This document shows positions 7,076 through 37,076 of a stretch of 64,000 nucleotides of DNA, piece after piece. Every line of letters starts with the position of its first letter. The first letter of the stretch is position 1. The translations under genes and the position numbers were made by a program. The notes beneath the pieces are model-generated. The model was not told the origin of the DNA. It ran no database searches and saw nothing but the letters and a program-made list of their open reading frames with translations. Origin of the DNA: Bacteroidota bacterium (GTDB taxonomy: Bacteria > Bacteroidota > Ignavibacteria > Palsa-1295); NCBI GenBank assembly GCA_021324685.1, contig JAJPIQ010000005.1, positions 62,001-126,000 on the forward strand. Reading direction: 5' to 3'.

Positions 7076-7077
7076 TT

Positions 7078-13288: not shown

Positions 13289-13306
13289 CCCGCGAAAATA
13301 CGAAGC

Positions 13307-15045: not shown

Positions 15046-15057
15046 GATCGATAGTAT

Positions 15058-16316: not shown

Positions 16317-19300
16317 TTATTTCTGGATCGTAAGCTTCTTCGAGAGAGTGATGGTCTGTCCATCCGAACCCGTCGCTACGAGTTCGTACACATACGAACC
16401 GCTCGTGAGCGAACTGAGATCGAGCTGAACGGCCTGCTGACCGGCATCGAACGAAGCGTTCGTGACGTCGGAGTTGACGACCTTACCCGTCACGTCGAGA
16501 ACACGCACTGTTACGTGCGAAGCTTCCGGAAGCGTGAAGGAGATCTGTGTCATACCCGAAGTCGGGTTTGGATAGTTCTGGCCCAGCGTGAAGCCGAGGT
16601 TCGAAGCATCCGGACCGAGCTCGACATTATTCGAGTAGGTCTTCGCACCGCTCTTATCGACGGCCGCAATGCGGAACGTATAGCTCTGCGCTGCATCGAT
16701 ATTCGTCGCAGTGAACGCATAGTTGTTCAAGTTATCGACGGCATTGACCGAACCGATCTTCGTCCAGGTTGGCTGACCGTCAACAACAGAGGCCTGCTGT
16801 TCGACATCGTATTGCGCTACATCCTTCTGACCGGAGACTTCCCAGGTCACAGCCGCCGTATTGGCGCCCGAATGATACGCATTTTCGTTCACGAACTCGA
16901 CACCGAGGATCGTACCGGCATGGCTCTCGAAGAAGGAGAGTGCACCTGCCAGCACACGGGTGACGCCGCTCGTGGTGTCGCCAGCGCCGGCCGGCGTTGT
17001 CATATATGGATTCGACCAGTCGAAACCATAGAAGACGGTATTGACCAGGTTGTCGTAGTAGGTCGTTCCGGCACCGCTATCGTTCGGCGTAAGCGGATGG
17101 GTCGCATAGCTATAGGCAAAGCCCGTAACTTGCGGACCGACCGCCGGCGTGAAGAACGACGGCTTGACCACGTCCGGCGAAGCGGAGTTGATGCTGTCCG
17201 GGAACTTCCAGTATGCCGGCTGCTGACCTACGATCTTACCGATATAGGTGCCGCTGACAGGAGAATTCGCAACGAACATCGTGTGCATCGTGCCCTGGAG
17301 CCACGCTGTATCCGTGACCGCATTGTTCACCTGAACGAAGCCATTCCAGTAGGCGATGTTCTGACCAGCAATGACAAGGTTCTTCTTCGCATAGCTTAAG
17401 CCCTGCGAGAGATACCGATTGATTTCATCGGTCTCCTTGAAGCTAAGTCCTGCCTGACCTGTCGGCTGACCGGCCACCGGAGCAATCGTCGGATCGCCGC
17501 TTGCCCAGACCAATGTCCACCACGGACGATAGTCAACATCCGTCGTAGCCGCAAGGCCGTTCGGAGCATTACGATCGATCGAGTCGTACGGAATGCCGAG
17601 GTTATTAAGAGCGGTATGAACTGCCGCGAGGTTCGCAAGGCCCGCCGGAGTCGCACCGTTATAGGAAACGATGACCGCCTGCGTCTTCAGAATAATGCTG
17701 AATACCTTGACCTGCGAATTATTCGGATTGTTTTGATCGCTCGGTACACTGACCGTTAACCGGAAGACGGTATTCTTCACAAGATTCGGTGTAAGTGCCG
17801 GACCCTGGAAGACCACATTCTGCGCCTGGTTTACGTCCCATGTCATCGGAGCAGTCGTCGAGCTGTAGATCGTCGACCACGGACCGCCATTGGTCGCGGC
17901 TTCGACTTTAGCCGTGACGGAGCGATTGAAGACCGCCTGGCTCGACAGGTTCTTAACCGTCGCATTGATCCAGAGCGGGCTCTCCGTCGTCACAAGCGCC
18001 GTGTCGCTGCTCTGCGAAGCACCGGCTGGCTGGTTGATCGACAGGACCGCAAGGTCGTTGGTGTACTGGAAGCCATCCCATTCGTCGGCACCGATATCCG
18101 GCGTGAGGTTACCCTGCAAGCGGAGCTCGCCATCGAAATCGCGCTGCTGCGTAGCCGTTCCAAGCCAGAAGCCGTTGTTCGAAGCCGGGGACTCGATGTA
18201 GGTCAGAGCCGGCGGCATGTGCAACGAATCGGTTCCCATCGCCGGGCTCGCGAACATCGGATCGCCCGTAAGCGAATGCGTGTCCTGGCCAAGGTAGGTG
18301 CGCCAATCGTTCAGGCGGCGGAACGTACGGGTCTGAATGACCGTGCCATAACGCACATCGTACTCCGTAACGCTTGCGAACGTATTCGTACCGCGGAGAT
18401 CGAACAGGTTGTAATCCGAACTGATCGAACTTGCATACGGACGGGGTACTTCGAGCACATAGTTCGTGTACGGTCCCGCGCTCGTATTCTGGAGGATGTT
18501 GTTCCAGAGGAAGGCATGCTTCTCGAAAATCATCGAGATGTTCGCCGTAGCGTTCTTCGTCGAGATCGAGTTGTTAAAGACCGAATCGAGATCTGCCGAA
18601 TAAGCTGCGCCCGCCGTATTCATATAAATCGGATAGACGTTGCCACTCGAGCGGAGATCGAAGATCATGTTGTTCGTCACGCGGTTTTGCGTGATGACCG
18701 GAAGCGACGAGTGTACCGCATTGACACCCTGCCCGACACCGTAAATCGTAACGGCCTGCTGGATCGCAATGCCATACGTATTACCCGTGTTCGAGTGGAT
18801 GTTGCGAATACGGTTCGCATCGATCCAGACGCGTACCACGTTACCGGTGTCGCCGTTAAGGACCGGGAACGGAAATCCTCCGATATACGAAGCCGGACTC
18901 GGCGATTCGATACCATAGGCATTCCAGCTCGAGCCTGTGGCGCCGGCATTCGCGACGTCCACATTCGAAATCTCATTATGAGAGATCGTCAGGTCCTGTT
19001 CATTATTGAACTGGATACCGGCATAGGAAATCGGGTTCGCCGCGGTACCGATCGTATTGCGCGTAATCAGGTTGCTGTTGTTGCGCCACACGATGAACTT
19101 CGACTGGCCGATATTGAACTGGTCGTGCAGACCGTGATCGTACAGACCGTACTTCGCATTACCGATTTCACAATTGTTAATCGTGATATGATTGATCGGT
19201 ACGGTATCGCGGACCTGCTGGAGGAAGATCGTCATGTTGTGCTCATTATAGATACGCACAACCGCGCTCGAATCGTCCGTAAAGTTTCCATTGCCATGGA

Positions 19301-21842
19301 TGATAAGGTCCTTGAGCGTAATATGGCTCGCACCTTCTTCGATGTCGAAGACCGGTCCGGGAGTCGTCTCGTTATCGACGATCGTGATGCCGCGCTTATT
19401 GGGCTCGGCCGTGAGCTTGTCCGGAATCGGTACACCGAGCGGGTTATAACCTTCGAAGGTCATATAGCCGCCGAACAGGTCGCCAAAGTAGAAGCACGAT
19501 GGCTCGCTGCCGGTGAACGTAATCGTCGGTGTCACGCCAGGATACGGAACCCACGAAACGGTATTCGTCGCCGAAACGCCGTTGATACCGCGCATATCGA
19601 GTGCGCCAAAGGGCGACGCGACGCGCGACGTACCATTCTCCGTATAATTCGCATCCTTGAGGATCAGGCGTAATGGACCGCCAACGCCGCGGAACCTCAT
19701 CGAATCGACGGCCGCATGGATCGTCTGGAAACGCTGGCCGACGCCGACATAAATGTCGCCGCTCAGCTTGCTGATCACAGAGAATTCAGAGCACGCCGTA
19801 TCGTTCGAGTGATCTCCATCCTGCGGATACTTTGCGATCGCGCAGATCGTATAACATCCTGGCTGAATATTCGAAATATGGTACACGCCCGCGTCCGACG
19901 GGAAGTAGAAGCGTACCAGGTTCTGATCGATGTTAAGTTCAGGAATCGACGAGTCGGCAAGGAAGACAAGTCCTCCATCCGAGCAACGACGAATCTGCAC
20001 TTCGACCGGTACGTCGAACAAGTCGGTCACACCCGTCGATTGGAAGAGTGCGGCCGGCTGCCAGGAAATACCTGTCGGCTTTTCTTCGTCCGGTTGCGGA
20101 TTCACAACAGAATTCGCAGCAGCATCGTAGATCGGTCGCACGAGCACCGGTCCGCAAACGGTATCGTCACCACGGAGCTGATCGGTCGCCATAATAGCAA
20201 TACCGCAGACTTTGTGGGTACCGACAACCGCCGGAGTAAACTGTGCGAACGACGTATCGTAATACGCACCCTTACCCGGACCCTGGCCGGCATTAGAGTA
20301 ATCGGCCGATCCATCGGAGTTACCACCCGTTGGGCCTGCAGGCCAGTAGGGGATAATAACCGTATCCCGATATACCACGGTACCGGATGGATCGCGGATC
20401 ACGGCTGTGATCGGCACGTTCGTTTGGTCGGCCGTTCCTAAATTTCGGAACCGAATATCGACCGGGCTCGCGATGGCAAGCGGGGTACGGTTCGCGGAAC
20501 CCGTTCCGACAGACGGACTGAGGATCTGCACAGCCTTAATATCGTTCGGCGGAGCGCAAATCCACTCGTTCGTCGTCGTATTGTTGGAAGCGTCCTGGTC
20601 GGCCGTAGGCTGCAAATTGAAGACGATCGCCGTATCTTCATAAATATTATAGCCCGGATAGGTCACTCCATTGATCGTGACATTCTGCGGCGTAAAGGCC
20701 GGGAATGAAACAGTCTGCGAAGTAAACGCTCCTGGCGGCGTCGTTACCGTAACGGTCTGGTTATAGACCTGCGGACCGTTTAAGATCGACATCGTCAGAT
20801 TGACCTGCAACGAGGTCGGAGTATTGCGACCCTGGTTGGTAATCTGAACGGTCGGAGTGAACGGGGTATTGATCGGCTCCGGAGCTTCGTTCGGAGGATT
20901 CGTAATCTTATCCGCCGAGAAATCGTAGTTCCATGCGATAAAGACGCGCCATCCCGAAAGCGGCAGGTGGGCCGTCGTATCGTTATTGTTCGGGCCGCTG
21001 TTATAAGAAACGACAGGCTGGCGAGTCTCGTCCCAGCCATTGGCATTCCAGCCGATGGAGACGTAGTTGTTACCGGTTGCTTTGACTGCCGTGTAACCGC
21101 CATAGGTGTATTGGTAGGAACCGCCGTTATAGAAGTAACCCCAGGACTGGCTGAAGTTTCCGGAAGTCGTTCCGTAATTAAACTGGAAATTCGAAATACC
21201 GCCTTCGTAAACGACCGTCTGCCAGTCGCCTTTGAGGCCGGCAGAAGGACCGTAGGCGTAAGCGCCGACGCCCTTGGCCGTAACGACCAATTCGCGCGTC
21301 GGGGCCGATCCAACAACGGCCCATTCGATATCGGGATTCACAGCTCCATAGCCACCCGATTCAAAACCTTCGAAGGGACACAGTTTATAATTCGGATAGT
21401 ACGAGTAGCCGTACGGATAGTCAATTTCGTTGTCGATGAGACCGTACGCATAACTATAAACGTAGCCGTAATAATATTCCCAGAACCAGTAGTATCCGCC
21501 GTAATCGTAGCGGGCAGAACTGGGCCAGTTGGGGCTGAAGATAACGGAACCGTACGAATTGACTTCGAACGTCCCGGACGTCGTGATCTGCTGGTTCAGG
21601 AACCGGAAATTAAACGGAACCTGATAGCCCTGCGAGACCCATTCGCCATAGTAATCGCTGGCGCCAACGTTCGTGCCGGTTACGGCACTGAAGTATGGGC
21701 CCGATCCCAAACCCTGTGCGTCGGGTGCATCGATCTTCCGCACGAGGTAATCGGTAATGGCGTACGTCTGCGCACGAGCGACCTCGGAGGAGATCACGCC
21801 CAGCGCGACGAGCACCATTAAAAATGAGTAGAGTTTTTTCAT
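16317..21842 (-). CDS. Giant T9SS-sorted surface protein with parallel beta-helix
   Basis: 1841 residues from the ATG at 21842. The frame stays open 66 codons further, but only the internal start gives a signal peptide (MKKLYSFLMVLVALGV, cleavage after ARAQ). Features in order: a Tyr-rich stretch at 112-152; CARDB/Ig-like repeats; from about residue 700 a right-handed beta-helix region of pectate-lyase type (many short NN-x-I and HNEISN-like turns); a flavodoxin-like segment with AVIVSYNG; a fibronectin-III-like domain; and a sorting tail with LGQNYPNPTSGMTQISF and LDVTGKVV. No catalytic residues are obvious; adhesion or glycan binding is likely. Last gene of sigma module 1, 181 bp after its neighbour. 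Confidence 0.9.
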   Translation of the reverse strand: MKKLYSFLMVLVALGVISSEVARAQTYAITDYLVRKIDAPDAQGLGSGPYFSAVTGTNVGASDYYGEWVSQGYQVPFNFRFLNQQITTSGTFEVNSYGSVIFSPNWPSSARYDYGGYYWFWEYYYGYVYSYAYGLIDNEIDYPYGYSYYPNYKLCPFEGFESGGYGAVNPDIEWAVVGSAPTRELVVTAKGVGAYAYGPSAGLKGDWQTVVYEGGISNFQFNYGTTSGNFSQSWGYFYNGGSYQYTYGGYTAVKATGNNYVSIGWNANGWDETRQPVVSYNSGPNNNDTTAHLPLSGWRVFIAWNYDFSADKITNPPNEAPEPINTPFTPTVQITNQGRNTPTSLQVNLTMSILNGPQVYNQTVTVTTPPGAFTSQTVSFPAFTPQNVTINGVTYPGYNIYEDTAIVFNLQPTADQDASNNTTTNEWICAPPNDIKAVQILSPSVGTGSANRTPLAIASPVDIRFRNLGTADQTNVPITAVIRDPSGTVVYRDTVIIPYWPAGPTGGNSDGSADYSNAGQGPGKGAYYDTSFAQFTPAVVGTHKVCGIAIMATDQLRGDDTVCGPVLVRPIYDAAANSVVNPQPDEEKPTGISWQPAALFQSTGVTDLFDVPVEVQIRRCSDGGLVFLADSSIPELNIDQNLVRFYFPSDAGVYHISNIQPGCYTICAIAKYPQDGDHSNDTACSEFSVISKLSGDIYVGVGQRFQTIHAAVDSMRFRGVGGPLRLILKDANYTENGTSRVASPFGALDMRGINGVSATNTVSWVPYPGVTPTITFTGSEPSCFYFGDLFGGYMTFEGYNPLGVPIPDKLTAEPNKRGITIVDNETTPGPVFDIEEGASHITLKDLIIHGNGNFTDDSSAVVRIYNEHNMTIFLQQVRDTVPINHITINNCEIGNAKYGLYDHGLHDQFNIGQSKFIVWRNNSNLITRNTIGTAANPISYAGIQFNNEQDLTISHNEISNVDVANAGATGSSWNAYGIESPSPASYIGGFPFPVLNGDTGNVVRVWIDANRIRNIHSNTGNTYGIAIQQAVTIYGVGQGVNAVHSSLPVITQNRVTNNMIFDLRSSGNVYPIYMNTAGAAYSADLDSVFNNSISTKNATANISMIFEKHAFLWNNILQNTSAGPYTNYVLEVPRPYASSISSDYNLFDLRGTNTFASVTEYDVRYGTVIQTRTFRRLNDWRTYLGQDTHSLTGDPMFASPAMGTDSLHMPPALTYIESPASNNGFWLGTATQQRDFDGELRLQGNLTPDIGADEWDGFQYTNDLAVLSINQPAGASQSSDTALVTTESPLWINATVKNLSSQAVFNRSVTAKVEAATNGGPWSTIYSSTTAPMTWDVNQAQNVVFQGPALTPNLVKNTVFRLTVSVPSDQNNPNNSQVKVFSIILKTQAVIVSYNGATPAGLANLAAVHTALNNLGIPYDSIDRNAPNGLAATTDVDYRPWWTLVWASGDPTIAPVAGQPTGQAGLSFKETDEINRYLSQGLSYAKKNLVIAGQNIAYWNGFVQVNNAVTDTAWLQGTMHTMFVANSPVSGTYIGKIVGQQPAYWKFPDSINSASPDVVKPSFFTPAVGPQVTGFAYSYATHPLTPNDSGAGTTYYDNLVNTVFYGFDWSNPYMTTPAGAGDTTSGVTRVLAGALSFFESHAGTILGVEFVNENAYHSGANTAAVTWEVSGQKDVAQYDVEQQASVVDGQPTWTKIGSVNAVDNLNNYAFTATNIDAAQSYTFRIAAVDKSGAKTYSNNVELGPDASNLGFTLGQNYPNPTSGMTQISFTLPEASHVTVRVLDVTGKVVNSDVTNASFDAGQQAVQLDLSSLTSGSYVYELVATGSDGQTITLSKKLTIQK

Positions 21843-22023
21843 AGCTTGATTGGAAAGTAAAGTATCAACTTTATTTTGACACCGCTTTCGCAGTGCCCCG
21901 CTGGAAAATTTCACTGGCTGAATAACAAAATGTTGCCCTTCAGACGACTGGAATTTACCTACGTATTTACTCGACACCGGAAAACCGCCAAAAGTTACAT
22001 TGGGTTCACCGATTTTTTTTCGT

Positions 22024-25000
22024 TCATCGATCGACCACAAGGGGTACCAAAGCCTGCCAACCCGCCGAATTTACGCTGAAAATGTACTTTCCGGAAGGGA
22101 CGTCCGAAAGCGGAATCGTCAGTCGGTACGTCCCGCGGGCAACGTCCTGTGCGATGACATTCTCGACGATTTTTCCGGTCATGTCGTAGATCGAACCGGC
22201 CAGGAAACCGTCATTTCCGAGTTCGAGTGTAACCCGCGCCTCGGCCGATGCCGGATTTGGCATAATATTGCTCATCGAGTATGGGCCGCCGGAGGCGAAA
22301 TTGCCATTTAGCCCCGTGCAATCGGTCACACTTACAGAACCTTCGGAAACCGTGACATTGACAAATGTATCGGTCGAGACCGTACACCCTATGCGTGAAA
22401 TATTTCGCGGACCGACCAGCGTATTCCATTCGATCGACTCTAAAAATCCCGGAGTTCCAAAGTTGAGCACATCACTAAACATCACTGAATTCTCCGAGTT
22501 TTGGGAGATCGCGAATGGAAATCCTGAAATCGGGAGCAGGACCGCCGGGTCGTAGGAAACCGTGATGCTGGCGGGATGGCGTCCTGAAAGCGAGGAGGAA
22601 TCGAGCACGATACTCGTCACGGCGATGCTATCGGCACGGACCGAGGTATCGGTAATTGTAACATGAGCCCTCGGCGCTGCCTCCACAACTCCGGTCCCGG
22701 AAAGTACCGCGCGGAGCGGAGGAGCGAACCGTGGATAGATCACGACACTATCGATTACGAGCCCCGCCTGGGATGGACAGAAGCGGACGAGAAGGGAAGC
22801 ATTCCCATGGGCCGGGACCGTGTCCGGCAGTGCGGAAACCAGCGAAAACGGAGTATTATGAAACTGGACCGAATCGACGATCGCGGCCGGCCCGCAGGGA
22901 ACCCCGATAAACAACGTATCGTCCTTGCATTGCCCCGCCGGGACGGCACCGAAGTCGACCGGTTCCGACGCAAGGCCGCTGTCGATGCCTGCGCCTTCGA
23001 TCACGATCGTCAAAAGAGAATCGCAGCCCATCGTGGTGGCGAGGAAACGAAGCGTATCCGATCGAGGACGGGTGTCCGGCGGACAAAACGCGAGCCGCAA
23101 GATCGCACTTTGCGCCGGCGCGATCTGCTTTGCCGAATCGACCAGAGCAAACGCGGTGGAATCGGAAAACGCATAGTTCGAAAGCGCGACCGTATCGGTC
23201 CCATTGGAATGAAGCGGCACATCGATCGAATCGCACGCACTTACGCAAACAAAATGAAATGGAACGATAGAATCGAACGCCATGGAAATGCCCGCCACGG
23301 TATAATCGAGAACGGTGAGGAGCATTGTATCGGCAAGCTGGAAACGAATGGTATCGGCGTTCGGTCCGAGAGAATCGATCGTCATGGGGATGGGAACGAC
23401 TCGACGAGAAAACGGCGGAAGGACCGTTCCGATCGGATGGAACACATTCCGGTCATCGCTCCATCCAACAAGCGTGATCGTATCGTTACCGAGGTTCGAT
23501 ATCGTATCGAAATAGGTCAGGACGGCATCGTGACATACGGTCCCAAGATTTTTACGTTCCACACTTTCCGCGAGACGCCGAACGGCGTGTCCCAGAACGA
23601 TCACGGAATCGCCGCGCTCATCGAGGAACTGCGTAAGCAGATTGTTTCCAGTGTCGGACGGGCAATAGGTCACAATGAGTTTTGCCACGGCGTTCGGAGG
23701 CAGCGCGGTATCTTGCGGGACCAATTGCAGGGTATATGGCGGATCGCTCCAGCGGCTCGAATCGAGAAAGAGCGTATCGCTTCCAACGGAACGCACGCCG
23801 ATCGTATCCCGAATACAATCCCCGACTACGACTCGTGGAAACACGATTCGATCGCTCGTTAAAAATTGAAGCGCATCGTTTCGAGCGAGGGCATTCCCCA
23901 AAAGCATGACGTTGGCGGCCGTATCGTTGGAAGCGAAGGTCAGGTCTGCCTGCCCAGGACCCGAAACGGTCGGGCAAAACTCGACCCGAAAGGTGTCCGT
24001 CGTATACGGAGCAATAATGCGAATCGAATCGGGAACGATCGTGAACGCGGAAGAGCCAGCAATGCTGCCCGGTTGAAGGACGAGCGGTTCCTCGCCTTCA
24101 TTACGGACGCTCAGTTCCAGCGTTTTGCAGCGTCCCACACGCACGGTCCCAAAATTCAGCGTATCGACGGTCACCAGAAACGGACTTGCGGCATGCCTCA
24201 CGATCGAAAGTCCGGCAGAAGACATCACCCACGGCGGCTCGAAGTCATGCATCGCCCGGTCCGACGCCGGATCGTTCACGGCGATCATCGAGGCAACAAA
24301 GAGGAGCGAATCGTGCGGCAATACGACCCACTTTGTCCAGAAGCCATTTTTGTTCCGGACCGTATCGACCGATTGCCACAGCGTGTGCCTCGTCCGGTAA
24401 AAAATTCGAACGGTGTCGAGCATGTCGATCGTGTCCGGCGAGGACCCATGCAGGCGGACGTATCCTTCCGCCGGTGCCGATGCGGTCGGAGCAAGAGAAA
24501 TTCCATTCGTCCATACACCGGCAGGATTGGGAACAAAATTAGACGGGCCATCCAGGCGAACTCGACCGACGCCACCACTTCCTCCCGCAAACCCCAGGAT
24601 CGCGCCGGACGTGTCGAGCGTTCGGCCGCCCCCTGCTCCGCCCGAGACCGCAACCTGAGTATTTATTTCCTGAACGGCCACCGGACTGGCAAGATAAATT
24701 CCTCCTCCGGAACCTCCGCCGCCGCCCGCCGCTATCATGGCGCCCGTCGTCCCCGAGTCACCGCGAGCCGAGAGTGTCGAGCGGTCGAGCACGATGGAAT
24801 CGAACGCAATCAGCGCGAGAGCACCACCGCCGCCGCCGCCGGAGCCTCCCATCGTAGAATCCCCGAGATCGACCGAGTTCCCAGCTCCGCCACCGGACCC
24901 TCCGGCGATGGGGACCAGGAACCTGCCGCCATTCGGATTCCCGCCATTGGGCGCTGTAGCGCCGAGTTCCCCTCCGCCCGCGCCAGCCGTTCCAAATCCA

Positions 25001-26019
25001 CCGCCGCCGCCGCCAAACTCGATGAACGGGTTGACCGCCTCGCCGCCGCCCGATCCGCCGCCAAAGCCTCCGTTGCGCGAAGCCGAATCGCCTACGCCGG
25101 CCTGCCCACTGGTTCCGAACGGCGCGCCGGTCGCGCCGCCGCCGCCCTGGTCGCTCGGATCGTTTGCTCCGCCCCGGACCCCTGTTGCCGCGCGTCCGCC
25201 GGCTTCCAGCGTGGCCGCCGAATCGGAACCATCGTTCCCGAGCGAATCGCTGGGACAACTTCCGCCGCCCGTAAACCCGCTGCCGCCGGGGCCTGGGAAC
25301 CCGTGTCCGCCTCCACCGCCGCCGGGGCCCCCGTTCACTCCATTCGCATCGATCGACATCCGTGCATTCGTTAATCGGACCGGCCCTTTCGAGAGGACGA
25401 TCACCGGGAGCCGCCGTGGGTTTGCCGCAAGCGAAGTATCGGGCGGATCCGTCGCGAATTGCACACTCGCATTTTGCACGATCAAAGAATCGACAAGGAT
25501 CGTGTTCGATGCCGAAAAGCGGCCGAAATTCCCGCCGAGCGTCACGTCGTGCGTGATCGTTCCCAAATGCTGGAGCGTATCGATCGTAAAAAAGAACGTA
25601 TCCGAATATCGCTCGGGCAACCGGCTGAAGATCGAAAGCGGGACGCGCCCCAGCGGCGCCCCGGGTAATATAAAAACGGGGACCTGTAATAACCTCCCAT
25701 CCCAGCTTGCTTCCGTCGGGCCGATCACCAGACGCTCGCTATCGCCCGGATCCACAAAGAAAACAGAGGAGCCGGAATTCAGGCCGTCGTACCCAAACGA
25801 TTTCGTATAATTGGTATCGGTCAGAATTTCGAGGACAACATTCATTCCCGGCGCCGCACAATCCGGACGTACGGTCGCAATATGGATCTGCTGCGCACAA
25901 ACAGGGACCGAATTCCAGAGGAAATAAGCAATGACGAATAAGAAATGACGCGCGGCAAACAAAGAAGCATTTTCCTTCTTCCGTTTAGCCTTCATCATTC
26001 GTAATTCGAAATGTGTCAC
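22024..26019 (-). CDS. Gly-rich, Hydin-like (choice-of-anchor D) T9SS cargo
   Basis: Up to 1331 residues. GTG at 26019 overlaps the OmpA-like stop (GTGA); an ATG pair at 25998/25995 gives a neater signal peptide (MMKAKRKK, hydrophobic core, cleavage after VCAQ). Residues about 220-480 are extremely Gly-rich, with GGPGGGGGGHGFPGPGG-like runs resembling the glycine-rich cores of surface adhesins. From about 600 to 1130 come several ASPM/SPD-2/Hydin-like Ig repeats (FGTVRVGRCKTLELSVRNEG, FGAVPAGQCKDDTLF). A short cohesin-like part and a sorting tail (MPNPASAEARVTLELG, IYDMTGKIVE, VPSGKYIFSV) end it. Likely a large cell-surface protein. Fourth gene of module 1. Confidence 0.9.
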   Translation of the reverse strand: MTHFELRMMKAKRKKENASLFAARHFLFVIAYFLWNSVPVCAQQIHIATVRPDCAAPGMNVVLEILTDTNYTKSFGYDGLNSGSSVFFVDPGDSERLVIGPTEASWDGRLLQVPVFILPGAPLGRVPLSIFSRLPERYSDTFFFTIDTLQHLGTITHDVTLGGNFGRFSASNTILVDSLIVQNASVQFATDPPDTSLAANPRRLPVIVLSKGPVRLTNARMSIDANGVNGGPGGGGGGHGFPGPGGSGFTGGGSCPSDSLGNDGSDSAATLEAGGRAATGVRGGANDPSDQGGGGATGAPFGTSGQAGVGDSASRNGGFGGGSGGGEAVNPFIEFGGGGGGFGTAGAGGGELGATAPNGGNPNGGRFLVPIAGGSGGGAGNSVDLGDSTMGGSGGGGGGALALIAFDSIVLDRSTLSARGDSGTTGAMIAAGGGGGSGGGIYLASPVAVQEINTQVAVSGGAGGGRTLDTSGAILGFAGGSGGVGRVRLDGPSNFVPNPAGVWTNGISLAPTASAPAEGYVRLHGSSPDTIDMLDTVRIFYRTRHTLWQSVDTVRNKNGFWTKWVVLPHDSLLFVASMIAVNDPASDRAMHDFEPPWVMSSAGLSIVRHAASPFLVTVDTLNFGTVRVGRCKTLELSVRNEGEEPLVLQPGSIAGSSAFTIVPDSIRIIAPYTTDTFRVEFCPTVSGPGQADLTFASNDTAANVMLLGNALARNDALQFLTSDRIVFPRVVVGDCIRDTIGVRSVGSDTLFLDSSRWSDPPYTLQLVPQDTALPPNAVAKLIVTYCPSDTGNNLLTQFLDERGDSVIVLGHAVRRLAESVERKNLGTVCHDAVLTYFDTISNLGNDTITLVGWSDDRNVFHPIGTVLPPFSRRVVPIPMTIDSLGPNADTIRFQLADTMLLTVLDYTVAGISMAFDSIVPFHFVCVSACDSIDVPLHSNGTDTVALSNYAFSDSTAFALVDSAKQIAPAQSAILRLAFCPPDTRPRSDTLRFLATTMGCDSLLTIVIEGAGIDSGLASEPVDFGAVPAGQCKDDTLFIGVPCGPAAIVDSVQFHNTPFSLVSALPDTVPAHGNASLLVRFCPSQAGLVIDSVVIYPRFAPPLRAVLSGTGVVEAAPRAHVTITDTSVRADSIAVTSIVLDSSSLSGRHPASITVSYDPAVLLPISGFPFAISQNSENSVMFSDVLNFGTPGFLESIEWNTLVGPRNISRIGCTVSTDTFVNVTVSEGSVSVTDCTGLNGNFASGGPYSMSNIMPNPASAEARVTLELGNDGFLAGSIYDMTGKIVENVIAQDVARGTYRLTIPLSDVPSGKYIFSVNSAGWQALVPLVVDR

Positions 26020-28331: not shown

Positions 28332-28379
28332 CCGGTCACAAAGCGAGCTTCGAGATGAGATGTGTTCTGTCGAACGCTT

Positions 28380-29099
28380 TTAATGCTGGTCCGTATTCGG
28401 CGTATGGATCGTCGGAGGTTCCATGGTCACCGCGCCGCCACCCGTCGTCCGGTCGATCGCCGTGTTGTCCGGTTTCGCGGAGGCCGGCTGTTTCGCGGTG
28501 TGCTTCAGGGCCATCCGGTTTGCCGTATGAGTCGCTGCCGGCTGGACCGGAGTAGCGGCACTCACAGTGGGAACATTTTGCACGCCCGAAGGTGCGACCT
28601 GCGAAGGTGCGATTTCCGAAGGCGCCGCTTGCGAAGGCGTCATGTCCGAATGCGACCGTGGCGCCTGGTGCACCGTTGCGACCGTTTTCACGGCCGCCGG
28701 TCCGCTCTCGGAATGGACGACGGCATGCACGCCATATCCGGCCAATGCCGAAACCGAAATTCCCGCTGCCGTAATGAGCGCGTTCACTTTCGTCGCGAAG
28801 AACGCTTTGAGCAGCCCGCGTCCGGCCACGTTGCCCGCCTGTTGCGCCGCGCTCGCCTTGGAACTATTGCCGGCGACCCCGATCCCGCCGAGACCGAGCG
28901 TCGTGAATACGGCCGTCCGGAGCCGGTGCGATGGCGTCGTCACCGATTCGTCCCGATGGAGCACTTTTTTGAGCACGAGCTCGGAACGAAAGGATTTTCG
29001 GAGCCCTTCGCTCGCCGCCAGCGAGATCAGGAACTCCTGCTCCTGCTCGGTGCTCAGCTCATTGTCGATGTAGGAACTAATACGTTCGTCGTGTGTCAT
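28380..29099 (-). CDS. Membrane anti-sigma factor (non-zinc type), module 1
   Basis: 239 residues from the ATG at 29099; an upstream ATG at 29135 would overlap the sigma gene by 11 bp and add 12 residues. Residues 1-50 (ERISSYIDNELSTEQEQEFL) resemble the helical anti-sigma domain but have no Cys, so the HxxxCxxC zinc site is absent. One membrane helix lies at about 107-128. The periplasmic part is low-complexity, with five APS-x-x units and Pro/Thr/His-rich sequence. Its place directly behind an ECF sigma gene is the main argument for function: it should hold the sigma factor at the membrane until an envelope signal releases it. Confidence 0.7.
   Translation of the reverse strand: MTHDERISSYIDNELSTEQEQEFLISLAASEGLRKSFRSELVLKKVLHRDESVTTPSHRLRTAVFTTLGLGGIGVAGNSSKASAAQQAGNVAGRGLLKAFFATKVNALITAAGISVSALAGYGVHAVVHSESGPAAVKTVATVHQAPRSHSDMTPSQAAPSEIAPSQVAPSGVQNVPTVSAATPVQPAATHTANRMALKHTAKQPASAKPDNTAIDRTTGGGAVTMEPPTIHTPNTDQH
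28587..28661. repeat. 15-bp tandem repeat in the anti-sigma periplasmic segment
   Basis: Five units with the core CGAAGG begin at 28587, 28602, 28617, 28632 and 28647, with a period of 15 bp. They encode the APS-x-x pentapeptide array in the extracytoplasmic part of the module 1 anti-sigma factor. Confidence 0.75.
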
Positions 29100-29124
29100 A
29101 AAATTTCTTATTCGCTTTTCCTGC

Positions 29125-29802
29125 CTATTCGCCATGTTTCAGATCGAGCCACGCTCCGATCATTTTGCGAAGCCGTTCGCGCCCGCGCCAGGCTCGTGTT
29201 TTCGCCGTCACCATGGCCGCTCCGGTAATCCCGGCGATCTCCTCGTAGGAGTACCCGAAATACTCTCGTAAAATGAAGGCCTCTCGCTGGGCCACCGGCA
29301 GCCGCAGCAGCGCCCGCTCGAGCATGTCCCGCAGATCGGTCTCTTCGACGTCGTTCGACCGGATCCCTTCGAACTCCGAAGGGACGTCCTCCACCGATAC
29401 GCCCGGAAGCTGTTTGCGGTCCCGGATCGCATTGATCGAAAGATTACGGGCGATCGTAAAAAGGAGGCCCGAAAATTTCCGGACGACCTTCATTTCGCCG
29501 CGAAGGCGGTACATCCGCGTCCAGACCTCCTGAAAAATATCCTCGGCGTCGCTCTGCGAGCCGACGAGGCGCAAAATGTATAAGTAGAGCGGCCGCTCGA
29601 ACGAATCGTAGAGCGCCCGGAACGCTTCGTCGCTCCCGGCAAGGAACCGGGCAAATACTTCGGTGTCGGCGTCCAGCGATGGCGGAGGAGCCGGAGGCGT
29701 CTGGCCTTCAAAGGCCACGACCGAAAACGGCTCGTCCTGAACCGCAGTGGCCGCACCCGAAAGGCCTTCAAACACGCTACCCGTCTTGCCTGGCATCTTC
29801 AA
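29125..29802 (-). CDS. ECF-family RNA polymerase sigma factor, module 1
   Basis: 225 residues. Region 2 spans about 50-120 (FARFLAGSDEAFRALYDSF, then DAEDIFQEVWTRMYRLRG and the -10 contacting FTIARNLSINAIRDRK). Region 4 spans about 155-215 (LLRLPVAQREAFILREYFGY, SYEEIAGITGAAMVTAKTRA). There is an unusual Pro-rich N-terminal extension of about 45 residues. It should direct RNA polymerase to envelope-stress-type promoters, probably including its own operon of anti-sigma, OmpA-like and two surface proteins. Confidence 0.93.
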   Translation of the reverse strand: MKMPGKTGSVFEGLSGAATAVQDEPFSVVAFEGQTPPAPPPSLDADTEVFARFLAGSDEAFRALYDSFERPLYLYILRLVGSQSDAEDIFQEVWTRMYRLRGEMKVVRKFSGLLFTIARNLSINAIRDRKQLPGVSVEDVPSEFEGIRSNDVEETDLRDMLERALLRLPVAQREAFILREYFGYSYEEIAGITGAAMVTAKTRAWRGRERLRKMIGAWLDLKHGE

Positions 29803-30173
29803 AAAGAACTCCGTACGCCTTGTTTTCGCGCCCGTGACTTGCCGATATCCGATATTTTCCGATATCCGGAGCTTGCTTATAACCGAGCGACACAGTAAAC
29901 GACCCGAATGTTACAGATGGGATAAAAATAGACCTGGGCTCCAAGGGTAAGCTTTCTTCCGGAAAGGAAATTTTGCGCGGGGATTATTTTTCATGAATTC
30001 GATGCTTTTTTTCATGAAAACCATCCGGCGCTCCTGGGAAATTTCGCACATTTATGCTGGCTATATAAATAACTTTCTCAAAGACACAATTTATTAAAAA
30101 ATTTCGAAAAAGTTGAACATATCATTTACAAAAATAGTTCCGAATTTCGTCGCTTTTTTTAGTTATGGTATGA
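29803..30173. other. AT-rich intergenic control region upstream of sigma module 1
   Basis: No gene is apparent between the sigma start and the terminator of the next operon. The stretch is richer in A/T than the flanks and must hold the module 1 promoter. It contains two copies of a TTTTTCATGAA repeat (listed separately) and several A/T tracts. I cannot place -35 and -10 boxes with confidence. Confidence 0.6.
29987..30018. promoter_or_regulatory. Candidate operator: two TTCATGAA palindromes 21 bp apart
   Basis: TTTTTCATGAA occurs at 29987-29997 and 30008-30018. Each contains the 8-bp palindrome TTCATGAA, and the start-to-start distance is 21 bp, two turns of the helix. The pair sits about 190 bp upstream of the sigma gene in otherwise gene-free DNA. 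A dimeric regulator could bind here; this is inference from spacing and symmetry. Confidence 0.4.
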
Positions 30174-30201
30174 AAAAATCCCGCTGGCGAGCGGGATTTT
30201 T
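30174..30201 (-). terminator. Rho-independent terminator of the module 2 operon
   Basis: A perfect 12-bp inverted repeat (AAAAATCCCGCT, loop GGCG, complement) with A-runs and T-runs at both ends, so it could work in either direction. It lies about 70 bp beyond the stop of the minus-strand gene ending at 30270 and separates the two sigma modules. Confidence 0.9.
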
Positions 30202-30269
30202 CTTTTGAACGTCTTTTCCTTTGTAATCAAAATCTATTCGGTTACGACCGATTTTACACGTCCGGCATT

Positions 30270-30800: not shown

Positions 30801-30897
30801 TCAGATCAGAGAAATATATTCAATACTACTTCTCTGACCAAGAAACGCGCCGAATGTTTCGAGAAAACGGCGGGGAGCGAATTACTTCTTTATCATT

Positions 30898-30949
30898 CTC
30901 GCCCTGCCACGTATCACAGCTCCCTCGACCTGCCCGCGTATTACAGTCC
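30898..30949. repeat. 26-bp imperfect tandem duplication at a stop codon
   Basis: Units at 30898-30923 and 30924-30949 are alike (CTCG-x-CCTGCC...GTAT-x-ACAG). The second unit contains the stop codon of the gamma carbonic anhydrase gene (30941-30943, minus strand) and its last codons. Confidence 0.6.
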
Positions 30950-31588: not shown

Positions 31589-31616
31589 AGCCGCGTCTTG
31601 ACTAAGACGAGTGTTG

Positions 31617-33605
31617 TTAGTATTGAACAAGGACCGGAATATTCTTTACAATGGAATTTGAACGAACATGAAGGTCGTACGCGCCGGGCGGAAGATCGAG
31701 CGAAAGCGATATCGGAACGTGCCCGGCAACGGAGACTTCGAATGCGGCGCGTTGGACCCCGAGCATATCGCAGACTTCGATCGCGGCCGTGCCGAGATCT
31801 TCCGAGGACTCGATCCGGACCTCGCCCCGCGTGGGATTCGGGCGGACGGTAAGCACTGGTTCCTTCCTGAGATGGATCCACTGCGAGAGCATTTGCGTGC
31901 CGCATCCCGAAAGCGGAACGATCGTCGCCGTCGCGCGGGGTGGCGGCAGGTATTCGCACGGGGCCGCAACATTGGGAACGGTTACCGAGTCGAAGGTCAC
32001 CTGCGGATCGTAATTCGTATCGCTGAAGACGAGGAACCATGCGTAGGCAGCGACCCTGCCGGGAGTATCGCTCACGACGAACAGCTTCGAACGCCCCAGC
32101 CCGGAGTCGCCCGGAAGATCCAGCCGATTTCCGGACCGGTCGTAGGAACCGAGATATTCGAGATCGGCGAGCGGGTAATGCAGGGTCAGCTCGATATCCT
32201 GAGGGGAAAGAAGCCCATTCAGGGTAATGGGGACCCTTACCGTATCGCCGATGGTATCGGTCGATACCGTATCCGAAGTGACGCCGAACGAAAGCGCGCG
32301 CGGCGAGGCCCCGAAGCCCAGGAGCGCGATCGTATCGGCGGAACCATCGGCCAGCGTGACCACCATTTCTGCATGAAGATCGCCGGAGTGCGCCGGCACG
32401 GACTCTACCGCAATGGAATCGTCATTATACCCTGCGATGCGGAAGCTCGCGGAATCGGGTCCGGTGATACGATAGCCCGAAGGCATGGGCGGATTGCATC
32501 CGCTCTCCGAAACATAAATAGGAGCCACGGATGAATTGCAGGTAAGCGTATCGCCGGCAAACAGCGTGTCGGCAGAGAGCGTGACGCTTCCAATAAAAGG
32601 TCCCAACGTCGAGACCGAATCGCCGCCGCCATTCGCCGTCATCCAGATGCTGCCCAGGTCGTCCATCGCGAAGACGGTGTTCGCGTCGACCGCGGCCAGG
32701 TTACGCGTGTCCGGGCCGGTCGAAGGCCCACCGATGGAGTTCCAGGTCGCGCCGCGATCGGTCGAGCGGTACGTACCTTCCGTCCGGTTGTTCAGGGTTC
32801 CCAGAAAGAGGGCGGCCCGCGTTGTCGTTAGCGCGCCGGAAAAGAAGAGCGAGTGGTGCGAAAACGTCGTCTGCCAACTCGCGCCGCCGTCCATCGAGAG
32901 ATAGAATTGCGCAATAGAGTCGCTTGGGTCATACACTTCCTCGTTCACGAGATAGAGCCGTTTTGCGTCGCAGGAATCCGTGGCGATGGTGTAACAGTCG
33001 CCATCGACCGTCCCGGACATCGCCGTCCAGGTCTTACCCAGGTCGATGGAACGATAAATCTGCGCCGCATAGGGGCTCGTGCGTTCGTCCGAGGCATCGA
33101 CATAGATCGTTCCATCCGGGGCCGCGGAGAACGAGCGGCAATTCCGATTGGCAATGTTGTACGTTGACCATGTTGCACCGCCATCTCCGCTCGCATACAT
33201 AAATCCGCCGACGTCCAGCGCGAAGGCCTGGGACGCATTGGTCCCAAACGATACTTTCCAGTATTCACCGGAGGGGAGGGTCGCCTTCCATGTCAGGCCG
33301 CCATCGGACGTGCGAAGGACCCCGTTTGTTGTGGCGACCAGTCCCGTATGACGATCGAAAAATACGATGTCTTTAATCTCTCGGTTTGGGAATGATTTGG
33401 ACCGTTGCCAGGTCACGCCATAATCGGTCGAGCTCCACAACGGTCCCCCTCCGGCCCAGATCACGCCGTCCCGAAACTGCATCGCGCCAAAAAAACCGGT
33501 TCCCTGCACGAGCCCCGGGGCAACGTTTCGCCACTGCGCGTGCACACCGTTCGAAACGAGAACGACCAGCAGAACGAGCACGGACCTGCGGATGAACGCT
33601 TTCAT
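31617..33605 (-). CDS. BNR/sialidase-like repeat protein with T9SS sorting tail
   Basis: 662 residues. Signal peptide MKAFIRRSVLVLLVVLVSNG, cleavage after VHAQ. Asp-box repeats recur: LRTSDGGLTWKAT, MYASGDGGATWS, YRSIDLGKTWTA, LSMDGGASWQ, YRSTDRGATWNS. This implies a beta-propeller. A Hydin-like and a cohesin-like domain follow (VPITLNGLLSPQDIELTLH), and the tail is a sorting domain: VRPNPTRGEVRIESS, CDMLGVQRA, LPPGAYDLHV. No sialidase catalytic arginine triad is evident, so binding rather than hydrolysis is likely. Cargo of sigma module 2. Confidence 0.9.
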   Translation of the reverse strand: MKAFIRRSVLVLLVVLVSNGVHAQWRNVAPGLVQGTGFFGAMQFRDGVIWAGGGPLWSSTDYGVTWQRSKSFPNREIKDIVFFDRHTGLVATTNGVLRTSDGGLTWKATLPSGEYWKVSFGTNASQAFALDVGGFMYASGDGGATWSTYNIANRNCRSFSAAPDGTIYVDASDERTSPYAAQIYRSIDLGKTWTAMSGTVDGDCYTIATDSCDAKRLYLVNEEVYDPSDSIAQFYLSMDGGASWQTTFSHHSLFFSGALTTTRAALFLGTLNNRTEGTYRSTDRGATWNSIGGPSTGPDTRNLAAVDANTVFAMDDLGSIWMTANGGGDSVSTLGPFIGSVTLSADTLFAGDTLTCNSSVAPIYVSESGCNPPMPSGYRITGPDSASFRIAGYNDDSIAVESVPAHSGDLHAEMVVTLADGSADTIALLGFGASPRALSFGVTSDTVSTDTIGDTVRVPITLNGLLSPQDIELTLHYPLADLEYLGSYDRSGNRLDLPGDSGLGRSKLFVVSDTPGRVAAYAWFLVFSDTNYDPQVTFDSVTVPNVAAPCEYLPPPRATATIVPLSGCGTQMLSQWIHLRKEPVLTVRPNPTRGEVRIESSEDLGTAAIEVCDMLGVQRAAFEVSVAGHVPISLSLDLPPGAYDLHVRSNSIVKNIPVLVQY

Positions 33606-33744
33606 ACCCTCGATAACAAAAGAAGCGAAGCTGCTTTAGACCCATCCCCCTTAAGGCGAATGCTGCCTTTGACCAAATACACCGTAAAGGCGGCAGCTTA
33701 GACCGAATCCTTTTTTTGTAATATACGAAGGACGGGGAAGAGAC

Positions 33745-34428
33745 TTATGGAACGACCATTCGGCGTTCGAACGGCCGGGAATAGGAAGGACTCGAAGAAA
33801 ACGCCGAACGGTCGAACATGATCGGCCCAATGCCGCGAGCGTAATAGACGACCCAATACGGGGCCGCCGCCGAATCGACGGAATGGTTCGCTCCCTTCTC
33901 GTGGGCATAGCGTACGACCAGGACATCCGCGAAGGAGGCGTTCCCGATATCGAGCGAATCGAGCCGTGCCAGCAGCCGCGCTTCGACCGCAAACGCTGCA
34001 TAATTGTTCCCATTCATGATCGTTCCCGCCCGCCACGAGGAATCGGCCGTGGGGTTGGACCGTAACAGAACGAGGCCGCCCGAATGCCAGGGCCCCGGCG
34101 TCGTCGTATCGCCGTCGCGAAACTCCCATTTGTCGGGGAGATCGATAACCGTTCCCGGCCGGAACTCCTGCGCCTGGACCGTATCCGCAGAAACGCGGCA
34201 TACTAACGTCGTCACGACGTGGCTGGTCCTGCCCGAATCGGAAATATAAAGCATCCCGCCCGAGTCGCGGCCGGCGATCTTCTCGGAATCGAGCGAGAGC
34301 CGCGTGGTCCCGTTCCAGAAATAGGCCGTCATGTCGCTCGAAGCGACATTGTTGAGCGGGGGCGTAAGCGTATTCGAGCAGCCGGCGAGGGCAGCCAACA
34401 CGAGCGATAAAAAGATCGGGTATCGCAT
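33745..34428 (-). CDS. Lipoprotein of unknown function
   Basis: 227 residues with a lipobox LAALAGC, so Cys17 should be lipidated and the protein anchored in the outer membrane or periplasm. The mature part has a beta-rich look (YFWNGTTRLSLDSEKI, YWVVYYARGIGPIMF) and no motif I recognise. It starts 4 bp after the anti-sigma/barrel gene stops and is therefore co-translated with it, which suggests a partner role in the same envelope signal pathway. Confidence 0.8.
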   Translation of the reverse strand: MRYPIFLSLVLAALAGCSNTLTPPLNNVASSDMTAYFWNGTTRLSLDSEKIAGRDSGGMLYISDSGRTSHVVTTLVCRVSADTVQAQEFRPGTVIDLPDKWEFRDGDTTTPGPWHSGGLVLLRSNPTADSSWRAGTIMNGNNYAAFAVEARLLARLDSLDIGNASFADVLVVRYAHEKGANHSVDSAAAPYWVVYYARGIGPIMFDRSAFSSSPSYSRPFERRMVVP

Positions 34429-34432
34429 GGTC

Positions 34433-36160
34433 TTAGGGATGGAATACGACGCCGGCCGAAAAACCGATCGCGCTCGAATAACTTCGCGATCCCGATACGG
34501 ATTGGACCGAAATGCCGGACGGGGCGGAAGAAGTTCGGGAACCGGAAGTTGAGGAACTTAAAAGGACCGCATTCGGGGTCCATTCGCCATCGAACGACGC
34601 TCCCACCCTCAGGGAGAGATGGTCGTTCATGGAATAGAGGCCGGCCGCTTCTGCCAGGAGCATCGGAGAGAACCCGGTCAGGAATACACTGCCGACCCCG
34701 ACGGTAAGGTCCGCCTGAAGCCGGGAAGCCGGGTTTGGCGTCACGGTCGCGGAAAGGCAGCCCCATCGCTCGAACGGGTCCTGGAGGACGGTCTCGGTCA
34801 CGGTCCGGGTAATATATCCCAGGACTTCGGAATGGCTCACCGATTCCTGCTGGACAAAGCGCCAGTCCCCGCCACGGACGCCGACGGCAATCCATGGGCT
34901 TACTTCATAGTCGATCCCGGCTTCCACGCTGGGAACGAATAACGACGCGGACCACATGCCGTTGGGAACGCCGAGCGCGTAGTTCGAAGCATTCGCCTGC
35001 GGGCTAAACCGGAGCAGGCGGTCATTCTCGCTGACAACGATCCGCAGGGGCGTGTACGATCGCGTCTCCTCTTCTTCGATGGGAATTTTTATTGCCGCCC
35101 GCGCGCGTACGCCGGCAACCGCCGGGGAAGTAATATCGAGCGGCTTCAACACGAGGGGACGGAGGTCCTCCTCGGGTGCATTCCGGCTCGCGGCATTCGC
35201 GTTACCGGAATTCGGCTGGACGACTGCGGCCGGAGTTTCGATTGAGGTTTCGGCCGGGACGTCCCGCTGGGCGAGCGGCACGACGGGCACCGGCCCGTTC
35301 GCTGCCTGCGGAGTGCTATGTTCCGAATTTCTATTCGCCGGACTTTGATCTTTCGCCGGACTTTGATCTTTCGTCGAACTTTGATTCTTTGCCGAACTCC
35401 GGTCCGCAGGATTCCGGTCCGCAAGGCCCCGCCGTGCCGTGCCGGCGTTGGGACGATTAGCGATATTCAGGTTCCCAGTGTTCGCGTTCCCATTATTCGG
35501 GTTCCCACTACTCGGCGGCCCGGCATTCGCATTCGATCCGTTTGCCGCTGCCCGCGTGCTCCGCATGGCGGAACGCGCCGCGTGAGCGTTGGAAGGATTA
35601 CGGACCGCCGAACGCGCGGAGGCACCGGGGTTCTGGCCACCGTGATCAGCTGCGGTTCCGCTCGACGCGGAAGCCGGCCCGGAAGAATTCAAAAGACCAG
35701 GAGTTCCAGAAGTCGAAGGGCCGGGAGATCCCGAATTGGAAGGAACCGTGCTGTTCGCGGGGCCATTCACAGAAGTTCCCGAAGCGGCATGATGAACGGC
35801 ATACCACACTCCGCTCGCAAGCAGCGCGGCGAGTACGAGGAGCATTGCGTTCGCTTTCCACGAGCGCAGCGACGAGAACCAGGCGAGGACCGCCCAGCGG
35901 CGGCGTTTTTCGGGCGTGGCAAGATACGGGAGCTTCGCGGCGAGAATGGGAACTTCAAGCGCGAGCTTCCGCTGGACGGCCAGCGGCGCGCCGATCGGCC
36001 TGGCGACGAGACCGTACAGCTCCTCGAGCCGAAGGTGCGCGTTCACGAGCCGGCGGGCCGGCGCGTCCCCTTGGGCGAACTGCCGGGTAAGCGCCTCCCG
36101 CTCGCCTTCCGTAAGCGAGTCGTCCAGATAAGCCAGAATATGTTCTTCAAGCGTTGCCAT
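34433..36160 (-). CDS. Anti-sigma factor fused to a barrel-like C-terminal domain
   Basis: 575 residues from the ATG at 36160, chosen because AACGAGGAACGACG gives a ribosome site and the upstream extension is Arg/Ser nonsense. Residues 1-70 resemble a helical anti-sigma domain (EEHILAYLDDSLTEGEREAL) without zinc Cys residues. A membrane helix lies at about 105-124. Residues 125-370 are a low-complexity Asn/Ser/Pro/Ala linker with hexapeptide repeats (KDQSPA). Residues 400-575 alternate in beta fashion and end in a hydrophobic SAIGFSAGVVFHP, as outer-membrane barrels often do. It overlaps the sigma gene by 14 bp. It could reach from cytoplasm to outer membrane. Confidence 0.75.
   Translation of the reverse strand: MATLEEHILAYLDDSLTEGEREALTRQFAQGDAPARRLVNAHLRLEELYGLVARPIGAPLAVQRKLALEVPILAAKLPYLATPEKRRRWAVLAWFSSLRSWKANAMLLVLAALLASGVWYAVHHAASGTSVNGPANSTVPSNSGSPGPSTSGTPGLLNSSGPASASSGTAADHGGQNPGASARSAVRNPSNAHAARSAMRSTRAAANGSNANAGPPSSGNPNNGNANTGNLNIANRPNAGTARRGLADRNPADRSSAKNQSSTKDQSPAKDQSPANRNSEHSTPQAANGPVPVVPLAQRDVPAETSIETPAAVVQPNSGNANAASRNAPEEDLRPLVLKPLDITSPAVAGVRARAAIKIPIEEEETRSYTPLRIVVSENDRLLRFSPQANASNYALGVPNGMWSASLFVPSVEAGIDYEVSPWIAVGVRGGDWRFVQQESVSHSEVLGYITRTVTETVLQDPFERWGCLSATVTPNPASRLQADLTVGVGSVFLTGFSPMLLAEAAGLYSMNDHLSLRVGASFDGEWTPNAVLLSSSTSGSRTSSAPSGISVQSVSGSRSYSSAIGFSAGVVFHP
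35337..35408. repeat. 18-bp tandem repeat in the anti-sigma linker
   Basis: Four units with the core GCCGGACTTTGATCTTTC start at 35337, 35355, 35373 and 35391, period 18 bp. They encode the repeated six-residue KDQSPA/KNQSST motif of the periplasmic linker. Confidence 0.75.
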
Positions 36161-37076
36161 CGTCGTTCCTCGTTGGACGTGCCGTGCGCGGCGGGTCCGT
36201 TCCCTGTGCCGGATCCAGTACGTCCGCCGGACCTTCTTCGACCAGGTCCGATAATTGTTCCCGCATCGCGAGCTTCGCGCGATAAATTCGTTGACGGACC
36301 GCGCCGAGCGTGATCGATAATTGGTCCGAGATCTCCTGATACGAAAGGCCGTCGAACTCCCGCAGGACGAACGGTTCCCTGATCTCGATCGGGAGGCTGC
36401 CGACCGCGGCCTCGACCCGTTCGCGGAGCGTCGATTGCTCTTCGCGGAACTCCGGCGCGAGCGTCCGGTCCGTCGAAGCGAGTTCCGAGGCGGCATCTTC
36501 CAGCCCCACGAGCGGCCGCCGGCGCTTGTGGTTCAGGTAGGTCGTCTTGACGATCGTATAGAGCCAGCCGAGAACATTCGTTCCCTCGCGGAACGTATGC
36601 GCTTTGCGGTAGACCTTGATAAAGGTCTCCTGAAAGAGATCGCTCGCAAAGTCGCGGTCGCCCGCGGCGAGCCGGAGCGCGAACGTGAACACTTCGGCCT
36701 GGCGGCGAAGGTAAAGTTCCACATATCCCTCCTCGTCGCCCTGTTGAAACCGTTGAAGCAGCTCATGGTCCGGAACTTCTTTCGGCGGACGGACCATGTT
36801 GATCGTGTGCGGAACGCCCCGCTCGTCTTCTTCCTGCCGACCGGCGCCCCGCGGACCCGTGCCCGGTGACGTCGTGCCATTCGTTCCTGACGAACCGTTC
36901 GTTCCGGGCGTACCATTTGTCGATCGAGCCGTTCCGAATCCGGCGGCCGTTACCGTCTCGACTTTTTCGAGCGCCGCTTTTGCCGCATGGAACAGCATGC
37001 TGGCGCCAGCCGCAACCTTCGGGCGCGCGCCACCTGTCCGGGCCCTCTTCAGAGCGAACGATGCGATCGACATCAT
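36147..37076 (-). CDS. ECF-family RNA polymerase sigma factor, module 2
   Basis: 309 residues as drawn. Region 2 begins near residue 100 (DHELLQRFQQGDEEGYVELY, then FASDLFQETFIKVYRKAH and LYTIVKTTYLNHKRRR); region 4 is at about 215-275 (SLPIEIREPFVLREFDGLSY, QEISDQLSITLGAVRQRIY). The first 93 residues are an odd low-complexity extension with TNG-x-x-G hexamers; an internal ATG at 36797 would give a normal-length ECF factor. Directly followed by its overlapping anti-sigma gene. It probably controls the module 2 envelope genes. Confidence 0.92.
   Translation of the reverse strand: MMSIASFALKRARTGGARPKVAAGASMLFHAAKAALEKVETVTAAGFGTARSTNGTPGTNGSSGTNGTTSPGTGPRGAGRQEEDERGVPHTINMVRPPKEVPDHELLQRFQQGDEEGYVELYLRRQAEVFTFALRLAAGDRDFASDLFQETFIKVYRKAHTFREGTNVLGWLYTIVKTTYLNHKRRRPLVGLEDAASELASTDRTLAPEFREEQSTLRERVEAAVGSLPIEIREPFVLREFDGLSYQEISDQLSITLGAVRQRIYRAKLAMREQLSDLVEEGPADVLDPAQGTDPPRTARPTRNDDGNA
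36874..36927. repeat. 18-bp tandem repeat in the sigma factor N-terminus
   Basis: Three units of 18 bp start at 36874, 36892 and 36910 (core CCATTCGTTCC). On the minus strand they encode the TNGTPG, TNGSSG and TNGTTS hexapeptides in the N-terminal extension of the module 2 sigma factor. Confidence 0.7.

Follow-up and report, generated by a model that had tools for sequence, protein, structure and literature searches.

As a rule, ECF sigma factors regulate their own genes. The Dma/Das systems of Bacteroides rely on dual membrane-spanning anti-sigma factors (PMC13088901; Pardue 2024 cited there); deletion of dma2 strongly raises the expression of das2 and its operon, and the dma2 operon is self-induced (PMC13088901). 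The PorXY-SigP system of Porphyromonas gingivalis ties an ECF factor to type IX secretion (PMC4800418, PMC7712824), and PorA, a T9SS-type surface protein, influences SigP (PMC7712824). The SM6 promoters of Flavobacterium psychrophilum place an ECF-type motif at a sigma/anti-sigma pair and at T9SS genes (PMC9723704). The T9SS regulation known so far concerns the machinery rather than the switching of the many cargo genes. In the literature searched, the T9SS of Kapabacteria has one passing mention.

We analyzed a 64,000-nucleotide window (bases 62001-126000 of contig 15) from a 3.47-Mb draft genome, referred to below as G000; the module parts described, and the terminator between the modules, are on the minus strand, in window coordinates. 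Overall, our data point to two separate ECF sigma/anti-sigma switches, modules A and B, which differ in build and are each predicted to amplify their own expression, and we consider it probable that they work by the mechanism proposed below. An earlier note on this DNA had described two sigma/anti-sigma units following the same plan twice. The two units were recovered, as both sigma factors score above the Pfam cut-offs and both anti-sigma genes are present, and so was the strong terminator placed between them (30173..30202; Rho-independent, 13-bp hairpin and U run, -17.6 kcal/mol, z -4.9). However, two parallel copies of one module were ruled out: sigmaA and sigmaB fall in different clades of the sigma tree, and module A has a separate OmpA protein where module B has a fused barrel and a lipoprotein. 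In most relatives, moreover, the modules sit on separate contigs and the pair is not conserved. The modules are flanked by a heat-shock block (HrcA, GrpE-like, DnaJ-like; 12749-16170), kept on the HrcA side in genome G003, and by ClpP with a trigger-factor-like gene (38723-41167), kept on the ClpP side in genome G005; the heat-shock genes were named from sequence. An Rfam search returned a tRNA as its sole match, and a scan for sigma70-type promoters was uninformative (8 sites versus 7.0 expected).

Module A begins with sigmaA (29125..29796), in which sigma regions 2 and 4 are recognized (within 29125-29802; PF04542, 6.8e-13; PF08281, 3.5e-14) and which belongs to an orthologous clade of 13 members (support 98/96). 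The next gene encodes asA (28380..29099), defined by alignment as a short single-TM anti-sigma factor with an N-terminal sigma-binding domain and a Pro-rich periplasmic tail; conservation is seen in the N-terminal domain and at the C-terminus, where the periplasmic tail closes with a short GGGxVxxxPP-like motif, and the sequence between them drifts. OmpA2 (26016..28331; start uncertain, with GTG 28154 as the alternative) adjoins asA across the family and combines an N-terminal barrel-like region with two OmpA (peptidoglycan-binding) domains, matched as two PF00691 stretches. PF00691 was found in 11/11 OmpA2 members and OMP_b-brl_2 in 2/11, so the barrel rests on weak matches. The OmpA2 frame carries at its 5′ end four 27-bp tandem repeats (ACGGGAAATTATCCATCGG...; 28175..28274; 4 matches versus 0.02 expected), which are confined to G000 among the compared loci and may represent a minisatellite or a leader element. 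The fourth gene of the operon encodes a Hydin/ASH protein with a T9SS sorting tail (22024..26019; PF15780, 8.5e-18; Por_Secre_tail, 6.6e-6) and holds the identical operon position in 11 family genomes. Beyond it lies the gene for a beta-helix-type T9SS cargo protein (16317..21842; Por_Secre_tail, 1.3e-10). From the sequence, its start was placed at about 21842 and not at 22040, the limit of the open frame; the beta-helix itself had no Pfam match. This gene follows the Hydin gene only in G000, G003 and G005 and is accessory to module A.

The double-OmpA, Hydin, beta-helix-type and BNR proteins listed in the earlier note are thus all present. Both the Hydin and the beta-helix proteins carry the C-terminal tail of T9SS cargo, and the machinery is represented in the genome by SprA (E 3.5e-24). 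Since about 144 T9SS tails were counted in G000, a T9SS gene beside a module is weak evidence by itself, and our case rests on conservation and promoter sharing and less on T9SS neighbours. The same count, together with the absence of the BNR and beta-helix genes from some relatives, would suit the reading that the genes are chance neighbours in a T9SS-rich genome. That reading is largely refuted by synteny and is very improbable, because the core gene order is kept family-wide and the promoter motif described below is enriched (34 sites versus 4). The order sigmaA-asA-OmpA2-Hydin was found in the window and ten other family genomes, i.e., at least 11/13; in one further genome the four genes are split over two contigs, and another genome, 67% complete, yielded no more than sigmaA-asA. 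The search for the gene order in relatives that the earlier note had suggested therefore bears out module A and, within the genus, the core of module B, but not the pairing of the two. Of the two overlaps it had pointed to, the 4-nt OmpA2/Hydin overlap (26016/26019) recurs at loci L069, L070 and L071 as well as in L097, a paralogous operon, but the sigmaB/anti-sigma overlap (36147/36160) was not seen in relatives. L097 (contig C43 of G000, 3513-12004) is a second full sigma/anti-sigma/OmpA2/T9SS operon in the same genome, and its OmpA and cargo genes overlap by 4 nt.

The regions upstream of sigmaA from seven genus genomes are unalignable save for one bipartite block, YGTAAC-N16-GTGTCG, which in the window gives the predicted sigmaA promoter TGTAAC-N16-GTGTCG (29888..29915, as a footprint). 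The genomes from other genera of the family (6/6) carry the variants TGTAAC/TGTCAC/CGTAAC-N15/16-GTGTC(G/T/A) before sigmaA, so that the motif, overall YGTMAC-N15/16-GTGTC(G/T/A) and hereafter motif A, precedes sigmaA in 13/13 family genomes (7/7 of the genus and 6/6 others). When dyads were counted with at most two mismatches and compared with 25 shuffles per sigma set, the real sigmaA set gave 5/6 partners and the shuffles at most 3; for sigmaB, the corresponding values were 4/4 and at most 2. Exact TGTAAC-N15..17-GTGTCG occurs six times in G000 (control, 0), away from SprA and in several cases at cargo genes. Two of these six sites are in the window: one before sigmaA (29915) and one in the gap between the Hydin and beta-helix genes (21999). 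The latter is a second exact sigmaA-type promoter (TGTAACTTTTGGCGGTTTTCCGGTGTCG; 21972..21999), and in G003 and G005, too, the beta-helix genes are preceded by this site. The beta-helix protein is accordingly listed as a predicted direct target of sigmaA. An independent cargo promoter, which the earlier note had counted against its own proposal, is thus present in form, but it carries the sigmaA motif and therefore extends that proposal.

Across the seven genus genomes, YGTAAC-N16-GTGTCG was found 34 times, compared with 4 for the reversed control pattern. Seven sites belong to sigmaA genes, leaving 27 others. At 11 of the 27, the next gene has a Pfam T9SS tail with E 0.05 or better; two of these are beta-helix genes, that of G000 and that of G003, which was counted on the basis of full-length homology. 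Three more precede genes with a T9SS tail by NCBIfam, and five lie ahead of beta-helix paralogs truncated at contig ends, including one in the module A of G005. One site lies before a BNR secreted protein lacking a tail match, one before a secreted S74 protein, and six have no sensible gene downstream. The binomial probability of at least 11 T9SS genes among 27 is 3e-8 to 3e-4 at a base rate of 5 to 13 per cent, which is an estimate; tail calls below the cut-off are permissive. The link between the module A sigma factor and T9SS cargo in the earlier note thus gains a shared motif, common to sigmaA and the cargo genes, the beta-helix gene of the window included. Its position before both sigmaA and cargo genes marks sigmaA as a predicted T9SS-cargo sigma factor.

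Motif A was assigned to sigmaA for a single reason, its presence before sigmaA in every genome. It could instead be read by another ECF factor, with sigmaA as just one target in a cascade; about 20 other sigma70-family genes are encoded in G000, and the -35 TAAC element is common to several ECF promoters there. We regard this as decidedly unlikely, given that motif A precedes sigmaA in 13/13 family genomes, distant genera included, that ECF factors as a rule regulate themselves, and that other ECF genes of this genome have different -10 boxes (GTGTTA and GTGTTT). We therefore retain sigmaA as the presumed reader of motif A.

Module B begins with sigmaB (36147..37076; PF04542, 1.6e-12; PF08281, 6.7e-15), whose orthologous clade has support of 100/100. 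The "anti-sigma/barrel" of the earlier note does have both parts, in one fused polypeptide (34433..36160), as indicated by an AlphaFold model and by matches to outer-membrane barrel folds. In the model, built with 16 relatives (whole-model mean pLDDT 60), a helical sigma-binding domain (residues 1-81) and a TM helix within 84-125 are predicted to be followed by a disordered tether of about 240 residues with no confident structure (~126-366) and a ten-strand barrel (372-573). The barrel matched the solved outer-membrane barrels NspA, OmpA, OmpW and AlkL in a fold search. This architecture is conserved in relatives, with tethers that are 112-272 residues long and rich in small and polar amino acids. 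The sigma-binding domain is homologous to that of asA (hhalign probability 92.6, E 4.6e-7). Further anti-sigma genes with barrel-like C-termini adjoin ECF genes on contigs 74, 75, 44 and 45 of G000. At loci L196, L200, L209 and L206 of this genome, ECF genes stand beside long anti-sigma genes with outer-membrane-barrel-like ends; at L206, the barrel-like protein is separate.

Downstream of the fused gene, and following it in the relatives examined, is a lipoprotein gene (33745..34428) characterized by alignments and by a model and fold search of a full-length relative. The window protein has lost the central beta-propeller that most relatives have, and it is also short at L011, L087 and L095. 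The genus retains the core of sigmaB, fused anti-sigma and lipoprotein, and wider relatives have paralogs. The BNR T9SS-type protein (31617..33605; PF15902, 2.1e-13) has a weak Por_Secre_tail match (E 0.012) and, by synteny, is present in 4/7 genus genomes; its gene is accessory to module B. In several genus genomes, a carbonic-anhydrase-like gene and a small barrel-like gene are found downstream of module B; elsewhere these border module A, and therefore they are neighbours and not parts of module B.

The predicted sigmaB promoter (TGTGATTCTT-N11-GTGTTA; 37082..37108) is a footprint found in 5/5 genus loci, where the motif TGTGAYTCTT-N11-GTGTT(A/T) lies a few bases ahead of the ATG. Four paralogous modules (L095, L087, L088 and L090) likewise have a conserved TGTAACT...GTGTTT pair just before the sigma start codon. 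This position suggests near-leaderless transcripts, which in the four paralogs would be self-regulated, with GTGTTT as a third -10 code. A conserved promoter directly upstream of each sigma gene is the signature of self-regulation, and together with the conserved gene order it agrees with the self-regulation put forward in the earlier note. That both switches regulate themselves and that sigmaA has a T9SS-cargo regulon are well-supported predictions. A comparable control of T9SS cargo by module B found no support, as the exact sigmaB motif occurs once in G000 and the BNR gene is found in only 4/7 genus genomes.

The fused anti-sigma factor is alike in build to Dma: in the predicted model it shows the four-part architecture of sigma-binding domain, TM helix, disordered tether and C-terminal outer-membrane barrel, with an ECF gene adjacent. 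Its promoter footprint would be consistent with induction of the operon on loss of the anti-sigma factor. Nevertheless, the fused protein fails the tests of homology and sigma group. Dma1-like loci (L213 and L214) were found via NigD in two Bacteroidales genomes, and 21 Bacteroidales homologs were aligned. Against this alignment, no homology was detected for the sigma-binding domains of modules A and B (hhalign probability 0.3) or for the fused barrel (probability 7). The Das sigma factors, used as reference, form their own clade (support 100/99) apart from sigmaA and sigmaB, which leaves sigmaB outside the ECF21/Das group as represented by these Das factors; the deeper placement in the tree is unsure because of several long branches. 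Classification of the fused protein as a Dma was thus rejected on the basis of hhalign and the sigma tree. The lipoprotein was likewise rejected as a NigD, since NigD gave 0 matches in G000 and the class sample and since a beta-propeller protein was predicted for the full-length relative. A true but far-diverged Dma member, paired with a diverged ECF21 (Das) factor, would explain the identical four-part architecture and the adjacent small lipoprotein gene, comparable to NigD at L213 and L214, but we consider it unlikely: the same sigma-binding domain that scores 0.3 against Dma scores 92.6 against the module A anti-sigma factor.

We propose the following putative mechanism for the two switches. 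In module A, asA would hold sigmaA at the inner membrane, while its periplasmic tail would be read by the co-encoded OmpA2, located at the outer membrane and peptidoglycan, and perhaps also by the co-encoded T9SS surface protein. A change at the surface or in the secretion route would free sigmaA, which would then act on its own operon via the YGTMAC-N15/16-GTGTC promoters and on T9SS cargo genes scattered in the genome, including that of the neighbouring beta-helix protein. In module B, a single chain would place its sigma-binding domain in the cytoplasm, its tether across the periplasm and its barrel in the outer membrane; a change at the barrel or the partner lipoprotein would free sigmaB to act chiefly on its own operon. 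Computation establishes the anatomy, the conservation and the promoter motifs, including the one shared with cargo genes; the binding of each sigma factor by its anti-sigma factor, the assignment of motifs to sigma factors, the nature of the signal and the release step are what we infer.

The candidate sensors, OmpA2, the cargo protein, the barrel or the lipoprotein, are suggested by operon structure, by the effect of Dma2 loss (PMC13088901) and by PorA (PMC7712824), which makes the feedback of cargo or OmpA/barrel proteins on the anti-sigma factor proposed in the earlier note plausible. Alternatively, OmpA2, Hydin and the barrel/lipoprotein may be outputs only, with the anti-sigma factors sensing otherwise, e.g., through cleavage by a general envelope protease. 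We give this a substantial minority share of our belief: most double-OmpA proteins, of which there are 5 to 20 per genome in the clade, are not beside an anti-sigma gene. However, the module A order is tight, with recurrent 4-nt overlaps, module B joins sensor and anti-sigma factor in one chain, and the C-terminal periplasmic motif of asA is conserved. We therefore keep the sensor reading as our working model. More tentatively still, we speculate that sigmaA is a sigma factor dedicated to T9SS cargo, its activity being set by the OmpA protein and the T9SS-exported surface protein encoded in the same operon; successful export would then feed back on the supply of cargo. Anti-sigma factors that span both membranes would, in addition, have evolved in another class without descent from Dma. 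This fuller picture is possible but doubtful.

With the short promoter code TGTAAC-N16-GTGTCG, candidate targets of sigmaA can be listed directly and tested. A second family of both-membrane anti-sigma factors, seemingly unrelated to the first, would make this design a general means of reporting the outer-membrane state to RNA polymerase and open it to study outside Bacteroides. Among known systems, FecI/FecR surface signalling does not fit, no FecR, STN or TonB domain being found in the module proteins. The modules resemble SigmaE/RseA and the zf-HC2 anti-sigma factors in having a small helical N-terminal sigma-binding domain before one TM helix, but they have no zinc ligands, no RseB in the operon and only Pfam matches below the cut-off: zf-HC2 matched 4/17 anti-sigma members, with 8.3e-4 as the best E and a score under the cut-off for the window protein, and 16/17 have zero Cys within the first 100 residues. 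Dma systems belong to Bacteroidia and have NigD, whereas module B lies outside Bacteroidia and has a lipoprotein that bears a beta-propeller in most relatives. SigP resembles sigmaA in being an ECF factor with a link to type IX secretion, but a two-component system drives it and its targets are machinery genes; sigmaA comes with an anti-sigma/OmpA operon of its own, and the genes marked by its motif encode cargo. Similarly, the SM6 promoters share with motif A the combination of a sigma/anti-sigma pair and T9SS genes, but the SM6 genes encode machinery (GldN, PorU; PMC9723704), whereas those of motif A encode cargo.
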